Below, piece by piece: positions 13,466 through 26,112 of a stretch of 37,946 nucleotides of DNA (position 1 is the stretch's first letter; the number at the start of each line of letters is the position of its first letter). The translations under genes were made by a program, and so were the position numbers. The notes below the pieces were generated by a model. It made no database searches, was not told the DNA's origin, and was given only the letters and a program-made list of their open reading frames with translations. Source of the DNA: Thermoplasmata archaeon. GTDB lineage: Archaea > Thermoplasmatota > Thermoplasmata > Sysuiplasmatales > Sysuiplasmataceae. The stretch lies in NCBI GenBank assembly GCA_021817225.1, contig JAKAVR010000015.1, positions 1-37,946 on the forward strand. The letters are read 5' to 3'.

Positions 13466-13553
13466 GGGCTGGTGGTCTAGTGGTTATGACGTCGCGCTTA
13501 CAACCGAAAGGTCAGAAACGCGGAGGTCGGCGGTTCAATTCCGCCTCAGCCCA
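13466..13553 (+). tRNA. tRNA-Val, anticodon TAC, with a 15-nt intron
   Basis: 88 nt in the genome, 73 nt after removing the intron. The acceptor GGGCTGG pairs with TCAGCCC (one G-U) with discriminator A; the D arm is GTCT-AGTGGTTA-TGAC; the anticodon stem TCGCG/CGCGG encloses 22 nt instead of 7; the T arm is GGCGG-TTCAATT-CCGCC. The loop starts CTTACA, so 34-36 is TAC. Removing 13503-13517 restores a 7-nt loop (CTTACA+A). The fold fits a bulge-helix-bulge: CTTA opposite TCAG (3 of 4 pairs), 3-nt bulges CAA and AAA each cut after the second base, and a CC/GG stem capped by GAAA. Confidence 0.92.
13503..13517 (+). other. Intron of tRNA-Val at position 37/38
   Basis: 15 nt (ACCGAAAGGTCAGAA) between A37 and A38. 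It carries a small GAAA-capped stem, and both ends fall in 3-nt bulges at the site used by the archaeal tRNA splicing endonuclease. The central helix has one T-C mismatch. Confidence 0.75.
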
Positions 13554-22691: not shown

Positions 22692-23873
22692 TCAGCCGCC
22701 CTGTTCCATTCCCGGCTCAAAGAGCGCTATGCCCGAAGGGACTTTTGGATAGAAGAATGTAGATTTCTGCGGAAGCAGCTGTCCGCCCGATACCTTCCTT
22801 GCAAACTCCTCCGGATCCCAATCCGGGAGAAGGATGGAAAAAGAAGCGCTGCCCTCATCCACTGCACTCCTGGCGAAATCTGCATCATGAGTGTACGTGA
22901 CCAGAGACTCAATTTCGGCATCGGTCATTTTGAGGCATTTCCTGAAAATTAAACTGTTGACTACGTCAGGCGCGATACTGAAGTCGACTTTCTCATCAAG
23001 CGAAAGAGCTGCCCTGTTAGGTGTGGCGTACCTCATCCTGCCGTCGTATACCACAATTTCGCCCTTTCCCGTGCCAGGTGGAGAATCGGCAAGGTCGAAG
23101 TATTCCCTGATGTCCGAAATGGAGAATTCCCTGCCCTGGGGCGCCCTCACGACCCTGTGTATCCCGCCGATCAGCAGCCCGTCGCTTCCCGTGGAAGTCA
23201 CGTAGGCGAGAACGTAGTTCCAGCGCGGGTCACCCTGCGCTGAATGCTCCTCGGCTATTTCCCTCACCGCGGCGAGTCTGTGATGCCCGTCTGCAACAAT
23301 TGCGCTTTCTCCTTCAAGCGCATTCCTAAGCCTCCCGAGAGCATCTGGCGAGTCTGCAACATAAATTGTGTTTGTCACACCCGCGGGCTCTTCGAATATC
23401 ATCATCTTCTTTCCTGACCGAAGTATCTCTTCCAGTGAGGGAGACAGCCCCTTCGCAGGGGTTATGAGGAATATCGGTTCAGGCTGACAGCCGAGGGCCG
23501 CCATCAGGCTGTGTCTTCCTTTTCGCGGTCCTGGAAAAGTGAGTTCATGCGGCTTTATGTCGGCTGACAGCGGGAATACCCTGACGAGACAGATGACACC
23601 AACCCTTCTCAGCATCAGGCCGCCGTGCATGAATCTCTGTTCAATGACAAAGACTGCCTCGTCAGGAAGCCGCTGCAAAATGCGCTCATTCTTCCAGCCC
23701 TCAAATTCAACCCTTGTCTCCTCGATGTTCAGCGGAAGTGTCAGGTGGGTTATGTTGTATGGGAAGGACTTGAGTACGGCTTCCTCCGCCTTTGATATCG
23801 TGTCAAACGGCGGCGAAAAGAAGTGTTCCAATCCGCTCCTGAAAACAAGGAATCTGGAACCGCTGACTTCCAT
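22692..23873 (-). CDS. DUF1015 family protein
   Basis: 393 residues from ATG 23873; a GTG three codons upstream (23882) is in frame but less likely. The diagnostic element of the family is VADGHHRLAAVREIAEE in the middle (family: iADGHHRyetal), preceded by the N-terminal HFFSPPFDTISKAEEAVLKSFPYNITHLTLP pattern (family: PpyDviS-eea). The fold is related to ParB/Srx-type domains, and archaeal proteins of that superfamily include the free-serine kinase SerK; whether DUF1015 has kinase activity here is not established. A 2-hydroxyacid dehydrogenase is encoded 2 kb away but in another transcription unit. Confidence 0.9.
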   Translation of the reverse strand: MEVSGSRFLVFRSGLEHFFSPPFDTISKAEEAVLKSFPYNITHLTLPLNIEETRVEFEGWKNERILQRLPDEAVFVIEQRFMHGGLMLRRVGVICLVRVFPLSADIKPHELTFPGPRKGRHSLMAALGCQPEPIFLITPAKGLSPSLEEILRSGKKMMIFEEPAGVTNTIYVADSPDALGRLRNALEGESAIVADGHHRLAAVREIAEEHSAQGDPRWNYVLAYVTSTGSDGLLIGGIHRVVRAPQGREFSISDIREYFDLADSPPGTGKGEIVVYDGRMRYATPNRAALSLDEKVDFSIAPDVVNSLIFRKCLKMTDAEIESLVTYTHDADFARSAVDEGSASFSILLPDWDPEEFARKVSGGQLLPQKSTFFYPKVPSGIALFEPGMEQGG

Positions 23874-23907
23874 ACAAATCACTCATTCGGGCATTGCGGG
23901 GCTGTTT

Positions 23908-23923: not shown

Positions 23924-24066
23924 GTCCTGCACGGATGTTAAGCGCATCCGGTTCTTAAATCAGATTGCACCGCGGGCTGCAGCCACTAGGCAAAGTCCAT
24001 TTTCCCAGGCAATCCGCAACTTAACAGTGAAGCCACTGGAGGGAGTTGAACCCTCGACCTACGCCT

Positions 24067-24078
24067 TTTTGTGAATCA
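24067..24078 (-). other. Intron of tRNA-Thr at position 37/38
   Basis: 12 nt on the minus strand (TGATTCACAAAA). TTGG (32-35) can face ACAA of the intron with three pairs and a G-A, leaving 3-nt bulges TAT and AAA cut after the second base, the same geometry as in tRNA-Val. Confidence 0.65.
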
Positions 24079-24093
24079 TACCAAGGCGTCGCT

Positions 24094-24113
24094 ATTTAGG
24101 GGCGCATTATGCG
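24094..24113 (-). other. Apparent second intron of tRNA-Thr in the D arm (22/23)
   Basis: 20 nt on the minus strand between G22 and A23. It contains the stem CGCA-TAA-TGCG, followed by CTAA that pairs perfectly with TTAG of the exon (12-15). The 3' end lies in a 3-nt bulge ATA cut after the second base, as expected; the 5' cut does not fit a strict bulge-helix-bulge, so the exact 5' boundary could differ by a base or two. Confidence 0.55.
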
Positions 24114-24237
24114 CTACCACTAAGCTACAGTGGCGCAAAGAAGGGCAACTTCAACATGCCTATTAAATTTTCGGAGATTCTGGCATGAGTCACGGCAAAT
24201 AATCGTATACCAGTTCGCAAATCATTTGTTGATCTGA

Positions 24238-26112
24238 GTGGAAAAGACGAAGAATTCGATGACTTCCCTAGATGTGCTCTCCCTCAGGGGGGAAATGTCC
24301 GCACTTGCCGGGGGATACGTTGACAAGGCGTTTGGCGGAAACCCGTTTTCGGTCCGCTTCAGCACTGAAAGTGGAAAGAAGGAACTTGTTGTCTATGACC
24401 AACTGTTTGTGTTTCTGAGCGATCCGCTCGAAAAGAGCGAGGGGGCGGCGATAGGACCTCTGGCTTCGACCGTACGCAGAAGGCTTGACAATTCCAGGGT
24501 GAAGGAGGTAAGGCAGCACGGTTTTGACAGGCTGATAACACTCGAATTCTCCAGGCCCGAAGGGATGATTGCTTCAATAGAACTCATGGGCAAAGGCAAT
24601 TTCATTCTGGTCGAATCTGGGAAAGTTGTCTCGGCCAGCAGATATGAGAAGAGAAAAGGACACGATATCTTTCCAGGTTCGCAATACAGCCTTCCTTCGC
24701 TGAGGTTTGATGTCCTGAGGGCCGGTTTCGACGATTTCCTTTCAACCGTAATGAATTCAAAAGGGGACGTCGTGAGGACGCTTGCAACCGTCATCGGCCT
24801 TGGAGGGGATCTTGCAGAGGAAGTGTGCACAAGGACAGGAGTGAAGTATCAGACAAGACCGGAGGAAGTCAGCCGAGCCGACTGGGAGGCAATTCGCAAC
24901 GCAATAATCGAAATCACTTCAAGGGCGGCCGCCGCGCCCGAGCCGGTGGTCTACTATGATGATGGAAAAGCTGTCCAGTTTACTCCTGTGCCGTTCACTG
25001 TCTTCGATCACCTTGAGAAGAAGAGATTCGGTTCATTGAGCGAGTGCGTTCTTGAATTTATAAGAAACAGACCTGTCGAGGAAACCACACCTGAGGAAGT
25101 GAGGACGGCAAAGCTTGTCGAGAAGCAGAAGGAGGCCATAGGCAGGTTCAGGCATGAAATGGCTGTCACGCGGGAGTTCGCAGATTCGATATACGCAGAC
25201 TACGAAGGCTTCCGTTCAATGCTCGGTTCAATAAAGACAGGCAATCAGGCTGCCAGACCATACACGAGGAACAGGGATGGCACATGCACCCTGAAAATTG
25301 AAGATGTGGAAATAACGCTCAACCCTTCCGATGACATAAACAGGGTAGCATCCTCTATTTACGATGCGGCCAAGGAACTGGACAGGAAGGTGAAGAGGGC
25401 AGAGGAGGCACTTGAGGAGATTTCGTCGAGAAAGGCACAGGGCGCGCAGAAAGCAAAGGCACCCGAGATAAGGAAGAAAGGCAAGAAGTTCTGGTTCGAC
25501 GGCTACAGGTGGTTCGTCAGCAGCGACGGAACTCTTGTGATCGCAGGCAGGGATGCCAGAAGCAACGACAGCCTAGTTTCAAAACACATGTCTGACCACG
25601 ACAGATACGCGCATGCAGACGTCTATGGTGCCCCGAGCGTTGTTGTAAAGTGGGCGGAGGGCAGCGGGGAGGACACACTTGAGGAGGCATGCTCGTTTGC
25701 GCTCTGTTTCTCAAGGGCGTGGAATGCCCAGATCGGCGCAGCATCGGCTTACTGGGTCATGCCTGACCAGGTGAGCAAGACGCCGGAGTCTGGCGAATTC
25801 CTGCCCCGGGGAGCATTCATTATTCGCGGCAAAAGAAACTACTTCAACAAGCTGAATCTGGAACTTGGACTGGGGATTGTGGACTATTCGGGCGAGAAGA
25901 GGCTGCAGTGTGCGCCCGTGAGGGCGCTGGCCGCAAACTCCGACTTCTACTACAGGCTTGTCCCGGGAGACAAGACGAAGGAAACAATAGCTGCAGAGCT
26001 TGCATCGAAGCTGGGTGTCGCAAAGGACGATGTCGTCTCGGCCCTGCCTCCGGGCAAGAGTTCCTATTCCGGACCTTTAAGGGCGGAAAACAGGAAAAAG
26101 GAGAAAGTGTAA
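24238..26112 (+). CDS. rqcH: RqcH/NFACT family ribosome quality-control protein
   Basis: 624 residues from GTG 24238; an in-frame ATG at 24259 (MTSLDVLSLRGEM) also fits the family. The N-terminal NFACT-N domain (SLDVLSLRGEMSALAGGYVDKAFGG, then LIELMGKGNFILV; homologues carry ELMGKGNIIL) is followed by a helix-hairpin-helix region near 150-230, a coiled coil at about 290-410, and the NFACT-R domain from about 415 (KFWFDGYRWFVSSDGTLVIAGRDARSNDSLVSKHM; homologues WYEKFRWFxSSdGyLVIGGRDAxqNExLVkKYL). It binds stalled 50S-peptidyl-tRNA and recruits tRNA to tag nascent chains. A TATA-like CAAATAATCG about 35 nt upstream suggests a leaderless or very short-leader message. The P5C dehydrogenase follows by 34 nt. 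Confidence 0.93.
   Translation: MEKTKNSMTSLDVLSLRGEMSALAGGYVDKAFGGNPFSVRFSTESGKKELVVYDQLFVFLSDPLEKSEGAAIGPLASTVRRRLDNSRVKEVRQHGFDRLITLEFSRPEGMIASIELMGKGNFILVESGKVVSASRYEKRKGHDIFPGSQYSLPSLRFDVLRAGFDDFLSTVMNSKGDVVRTLATVIGLGGDLAEEVCTRTGVKYQTRPEEVSRADWEAIRNAIIEITSRAAAAPEPVVYYDDGKAVQFTPVPFTVFDHLEKKRFGSLSECVLEFIRNRPVEETTPEEVRTAKLVEKQKEAIGRFRHEMAVTREFADSIYADYEGFRSMLGSIKTGNQAARPYTRNRDGTCTLKIEDVEITLNPSDDINRVASSIYDAAKELDRKVKRAEEALEEISSRKAQGAQKAKAPEIRKKGKKFWFDGYRWFVSSDGTLVIAGRDARSNDSLVSKHMSDHDRYAHADVYGAPSVVVKWAEGSGEDTLEEACSFALCFSRAWNAQIGAASAYWVMPDQVSKTPESGEFLPRGAFIIRGKRNYFNKLNLELGLGIVDYSGEKRLQCAPVRALAANSDFYYRLVPGDKTKETIAAELASKLGVAKDDVVSALPPGKSSYSGPLRAENRKKEKV

Follow-up and report, generated by a model that had tools for sequence, protein, structure and literature searches.

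A conserved tRNA-Thr(GGT) gene with introns in the D arm and the anticodon loop in a family of Thermoplasmatota

The draft genome of a Thermoplasmata archaeon carries a real and conserved tRNA-Thr(GGT) gene with two introns. Introns of this kind are known, and we found none described for this lineage. The gene lies in a 37,946-nt stretch of DNA (hereafter the window). It is very probably the sole expressed tRNA-Thr(GGT) gene of this archaeon, with introns that would be cut at positions 20/21 and 37/38 by an alpha2 splicing endonuclease (EndA), followed by ligation of the exons. This reading is built on sequence, namely on the anatomy and conservation of the gene, covariation, a mature form that occurs naturally without introns, the type of the enzyme, and a search that found no second gene. 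Noncanonical tRNA introns are usually described as nearly confined to Crenarchaeota and their relatives and as tied to special endonucleases; here they are conserved in a family of Thermoplasmatota with a plain alpha2 enzyme.

The window belongs to a 95%-complete draft genome of 99 contigs (G000). Its EndA is 97% identical to that of the Thermoplasmata MAG YF1.bin95 and 65% identical to that of Ca. Sysuiplasma superficiale. The tRNA-Thr gene of the latter has the contig coordinates of the one in family member G006, and the genome therefore belongs to the family of Sysuiplasma (Ca. Sysuiplasmataceae, Thermoplasmatota) and to a different genus, in agreement with an initial annotation of the window that had suggested a Thermoplasmata-like host.

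The Rfam tRNA model matches positions 24031-24134 on the minus strand with 50.2 bits and places inserts in the D arm and the anticodon loop; the gene (24134-24031, minus) is missing from the calls of ARAGORN. It is 104 nt long in total, with a perfect acceptor stem (GCCACTG/CAGTGGC), T stem and anticodon stem, and U73 as the discriminator. Taking out 20 and 12 nt leaves a 72-nt cloverleaf with anticodon GGT and the right isotype. The initial annotation had thus been correct in describing a 104-nt tRNA-Thr(GGT) gene with these three perfect stems and two introns, a 20-nt one in the D arm and a 12-nt one at 37/38, both of which are kept in the family. The features read as follows, where H denotes the central helix of the bulge-helix-bulge (BHB) motif and h' the intron hairpin.

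24161..24171, minus strand: promoter element resembling a TATA box, AAAATTTAATA, lying 26 nt upstream of tRNA position 1
24116..24134, minus strand: exon 1, tRNA positions 1-20, GCCACTGTAGCTTAGTGGT, from the Rfam alignment, with the junction set by intronless alleles and the BHB register
24096..24115, minus strand: intron 1, 20 nt, position 20/21, AGCGCATAATGCGCCCCTAA, from the BHB fit and covariation over 15 genomes; laid out as a bulge nucleotide, the h' hairpin GCGCA/TGCGC, CCCT as the 3' strand of H, and two bulge nucleotides
24079..24095, minus strand: exon 2, tRNA positions 21-37 with anticodon GGT, ATAGCGACGCCTTGGTA, from the Rfam alignment and the same stretch in intronless orthologs
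24067..24078, minus strand: intron 2, TGATTCACAAAA, 12 nt at the canonical position 37/38, of the bulge-helix-loop type and conserved in the family
24031..24066, minus strand: exon 3, tRNA positions 38-73 with discriminator U73, AGGCGTAGGTCGAGGGTTCAACTCCCTCCAGTGGCT, from the Rfam alignment

The neighbours of the gene are a divergently transcribed NFACT-domain protein (window 24238-26112, plus strand) and, downstream, DUF1015 (window 22692-23882, minus strand).

Thr(GGT) was seen once among the 39 Rfam-scored tRNAs of the genome, in which Thr(CGT) and Thr(TGT) each have a gene of their own. According to the initial annotation, another intact tRNA-Thr(GGT) gene, combined with a lack of mature RNA from this locus, would make it a pseudogene; such a gene was searched for in the 95%-complete genome and not found. 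Of the 488 Thr codons that the main ORFs of the window contain, 211 are ACC or ACU, and the gene is therefore needed. Both introns are retained in all eight family genomes (four of the genus and four others of the family, the window's included), in genes of 104-106 nt. The seven orthologs are 85-98% identical to the window gene and keep its TATA box at a similar distance with small changes, while the flanking sequence diverges. The D insert varies in sequence with its pairing maintained. A pseudogene or decaying copy, as the two inserts and the ARAGORN miss might suggest, is extremely improbable for a locus that is the only one found for needed codons, has perfect stems, and is kept throughout the family together with covarying inserts and a TATA box. 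The draft state of the genome, with its 99 contigs, might similarly point to an assembly artefact of a single metagenome bin; with eight separate assemblies in agreement, we put the chance of this at next to nil.

The D-arm junction was assigned by comparison with natural intronless alleles. A Thr(GGT) pattern matched 93 of 300 genomes sampled across the class; about 80 of the 93 are intronless, read GCTTAGNGGTATAGC or close variants, and represent natural empty sites. The exact stretch predicted after splicing, GCTTAGTGGTATAGCGACGCCTTGGTA, occurs naturally without an intron in G237 and G245. One intronless gene (L152, at the same place as G237) is identical to the predicted mature tRNA at 70 of 72 positions and scores 73.3 bits, versus 50.2 for the gene with introns. 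The initial annotation had put the junction at 22/23, some 2 nt away from the 20/21 position indicated by a comparison of 15 genomes from six families. The product of 22/23, GGTAGAGC, is ruled out by the intronless alleles, and the mature D arm inferred from it, GCTT-AGTGGTA-GAGC, has to be replaced by GCTT-AGTGGTA-TAGC. In the window genome itself, 20/21 and 21/22 (one base later at both ends) give the same mature sequence. We set the register at 20/21 because this junction yields GGCATAGC in G028, a product that G205 and G326 carry as natural alleles without an intron, whereas 21/22 does not; with G028 fitting only 20/21, the later junction is ruled out.

Outside the family, the D-arm site is also interrupted in f30 (two genomes), f20 (two genomes among intronless relatives), f11, f16 and f19, and the intron thus occupies one site of one tRNA across six families (15 genomes). 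No 37/38 insert was found in the three D-insert genes outside the family that were read whole (G017, G028 and G040). Mapped onto an endonuclease tree (30 genomes), the D-arm intron requires five changes, of which at least three gains or losses are forced by well-supported branches; therefore, this intron comes and goes. The occupied and empty 20/21 sites across six families offer a natural series for studying intron gain.

With the junction at 20/21, the D stem forms the outer helix h, two 3-nt bulges surround a 4-bp H, and the intron hairpin (4-11 bp across 15 sequences) forms h', giving the hBHBh' geometry. H pairs A14, G15, N16 and G18 with the intron (CCCU in the window genome), and the bulges are G19-U20^A and A-N^A (A-A^A in the window gene), each cut after its second base. 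In geometry, the intron shows all the marks of its class, that is, 3-nt bulges, a 4-bp H and cuts after the second bulge nucleotide. The 5' cut had been thought not to fit a strict BHB, which no longer holds since at 20/21 both cuts take the standard place in 3-nt bulges. The pairing of insert CUAA with exon UUAG, also proposed initially, is borne out; A14-U and G15-C, two of its pairs, form part of H. All four pairs of H are formed in the sister genus and three of four in the window's genus (U16.C or U16.U mismatch), in which U13.U22 beside the bulge is also unpaired; the predicted motif of the window's genus is canonical in geometry, yet imperfect.

Covariation over the 15 sequences supports these helices: 92.8% of cells are paired, and 23 cells show double changes against 6.0 in shuffled data, a number that none of 500 shuffles reached. 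The covariation score is 0.357 versus 0.084 for shuffled data, and slid registers have 18-45% of cells paired. In 11 of the 15 genomes, exon nucleotide 16 (U/A/C) is paired with its partner in the intron (A/U/G), and for the window sequence alone, shuffled inserts match the helix fit in 0.08% of trials. RNAalifold and RNAfold favour an alternative that replaces H by a smaller number of exon-intron pairs and leaves the covarying position-16 pair open; this predicted fold fails to explain the covariation there. A 6-bp H was also considered and was replaced by the 4-bp H, with h' beginning one base earlier, because the intron base that faces G19 covaries, instead, with the first base of the hairpin.

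The insert would make a stable hairpin, and might on that ground be taken for a D-loop extension retained in the mature tRNA. We consider this very unlikely, since the insert varies in length from 19 to ~33 nt, is gone without trace in most class orthologs, whose D arm equals the spliced form, and has both ends at BHB cut positions. It also pairs with G18, a base required in mature tRNAs for contact between the D loop and the T loop.

Intron 2, which is 12 or 14 nt long in the eight family genomes, does not form a strict BHB. Its H comprises 3 bp (U32-A, U33-A and G34-C, retained in the family genomes checked) plus G.A and there is no stable h', which makes it a bulge-helix-loop (BHL) substrate. 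The BHL variant is known among 37/38 introns, and such introns are excised from the full pre-tRNA by the alpha2 EndA of Archaeoglobus (PMC6379350).

A gene-by-gene reading of the genome revealed ~24 introns in 42 tRNA genes. Five of these are noncanonical, situated in the D or T loops of four genes, Thr(GGT), Ala(CGC), Lys(UUU) and Lys(CUU). The tRNA-Ala(CGC) gene (L008, G000:C66:12422-12509; relatives L179, L180, L213 and L232) has a strict D-arm intron of 15-21 nt at 20/21, which is present in all four family genomes read (G000, G003, G004 and G005), with two copies in G003. The tRNA-Lys(CUU) gene (L254, G000:C56:37415, plus strand; L251-L257) has its intron in the T loop, at 59/60, where it forms a strict BHB; this intron was found in seven family genomes and in no other matched genome of a 100-genome class sample. 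In tRNA-Lys(UUU) (L262, G000:C6:104021, minus strand; L258-L261), noncanonical introns occur at both sites: a D-arm intron at 20/21 (29 nt in G000, 17 nt in G006) that is relaxed on its 3' side, and a 15-nt T-loop intron at 59/60 that forms a strict BHB. Rfam scores tRNA-Lys(CUU) below its threshold and misses tRNA-Lys(UUU). Standard tRNA finders therefore overlook such genes, as ARAGORN does for Thr(GGT) and the Rfam threshold for both Lys genes, which fall below or outside it.

The splicing endonuclease, whose type the initial annotation had proposed to identify, is a single fused protein of the alpha2 type. Its one gene, near 88417-89220 of G000:C6, encodes 354 amino acids with two tRNA_int_endo_N and two tRNA_int_endo domains (PF01974 x2 and PF02778 x2) and a Tyr-His-Lys triad in the second repeat, and its closest PDB structures are the EndA of Methanopyrus and Archaeoglobus. 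A second EndA gene for a separate beta subunit was searched for in G000 and not found; with a single gene of two repeats, the enzyme is neither a heterotetramer with a beta subunit nor of the epsilon2 three-unit order. Broad-specificity enzymes have a lysine-bearing insertion, the Crenarchaea-specific (CSL) or ARMAN-specific loop (ASL), that follows the YG motif in the catalytic unit. It is absent from EndA in all 15 genomes with the D-arm intron; A. pernix EndA has 10 extra residues at this position. The loop of ARMAN-2 sits at a position analogous to the broad-specificity loop of Aeropyrum (PMC12397907). A lysine-rich RSAKTGK insertion in EndA was tried as a CSL analogue and rejected, as the Methanocaldococcus enzyme is of near-equal length there and the CSL lies elsewhere.

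The initial annotation had hinted at an endonuclease of unusual, relaxed specificity. Such an enzyme would accommodate the noncanonical introns in four tRNAs, the imperfect H of the Thr D-arm intron in the window's genus and the Lys(UUU) D-arm intron without a clean 3' bulge, and alpha2 enzymes are called narrow in reviews (PMC6379350, PMC12397907). We nevertheless regard it as unlikely: EndA is of the alpha2 type and lacks the CSL or ASL insertion in 15/15 genomes with the D-arm intron, strict hBHBh' motifs (4-bp H, 3-nt bulges) are formed by the Ala(CGC) intron and by the two Lys introns at 59/60, H of the Thr D-arm intron is complete in the sister genus, and Archaeoglobus alpha2 EndA already handles BHL introns at 37/38 (PMC6379350). 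Given an EndA without a special loop and the corrected 20/21 junction, a relaxed enzyme therefore need not be invoked for the D-arm intron.

We propose instead that the tRNA-Thr(GGT) gene is transcribed into a pre-tRNA that would fold into two substrates of the homodimeric alpha2 EndA. In the D arm, with U16 in H, the enzyme would cut the BHB between 20 and 21, and the short BHL substrate in the anticodon loop would be cut at 37/38. The exons would then be joined by RtcB, the usual archaeal tRNA ligase, into the 72-nt tRNA. More tentatively, it is possible that an alpha2 EndA without CSL/ASL supports a Thermoproteales-like spread of D- and T-loop introns, imperfect BHBs included. If true, loop acquisition would not be the gate for noncanonical introns, contrary to the co-evolution model.

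Positions 20/21 and 59/60 are listed among the known noncanonical intron sites (PMC4090602). The introns resemble those of Crenarchaeota/Thermoproteales, Nanoarchaeota and Thaumarchaeota in these sites, in their BHB anatomy and in the coexistence of a 37/38 intron in the same gene, and differ in having a Thermoplasmatota host and an alpha2 rather than an (alpha-beta)2 endonuclease. The enzyme type and the second Thr(GGT) intron are shared with Archaeoglobus and Thermoplasma, which have canonical 37/38 introns and alpha2 EndA. However, euryarchaea with alpha4 or alpha2 enzymes mostly carry a single, canonically placed BHB intron, in <10% of genes (PMC4090602), unlike the intron-rich tRNA set described here. 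Mean numbers of tRNA introns per gene are 0.21 in Archaea and 0.84 in Thermoproteales (PMC8450103). Introns in D and T loops are also found in genomes of ARMAN-2 (epsilon2 EndA) and Crenarchaeota (ASL/CSL EndA), whereas the enzyme of the window genome has no ASL/CSL and the plain alpha2 fusion domain order. A 2011 survey listed three thermophilic methanogens as the euryarchaeal noncanonical cases (PMC3218864). We found no published description of noncanonical tRNA introns in Thermoplasmatota; priority is not proven because supplementary tables and subscription papers lay outside the literature search.

Several further observations concern the tRNA genes of this genome, which is intron-rich overall (~19 genes with 37/38 introns), including tRNA-Val(TAC) at window 13466-13553 (plus strand). 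An initiator tRNA-Met was found in G000 neither by Rfam nor by a pattern search for its anticodon arm; it may carry an intron or fall in the missing 5% of the genome. The genome has two distinct tRNA-Asn(GTT) genes (L007 and L011), of which one is interrupted at 37/38 and the other is intronless and divergent; both also occur in G003 (L176, L184). The tRNAs Thr(CGT), Ile(GAT) and Lys(UUU) have T loops reading UCC(G/A)AAU (L002, L006 and L262; relatives L174 and L177), with C at position 55 in place of the near-universal U (pseudouridine). Finally, tRNA-Trp (L293, G000:C53:5740-6060) has a long 37/38 intron containing GATGATGA and CTGA, which may be a box C/D guide of the type seen in other archaea.
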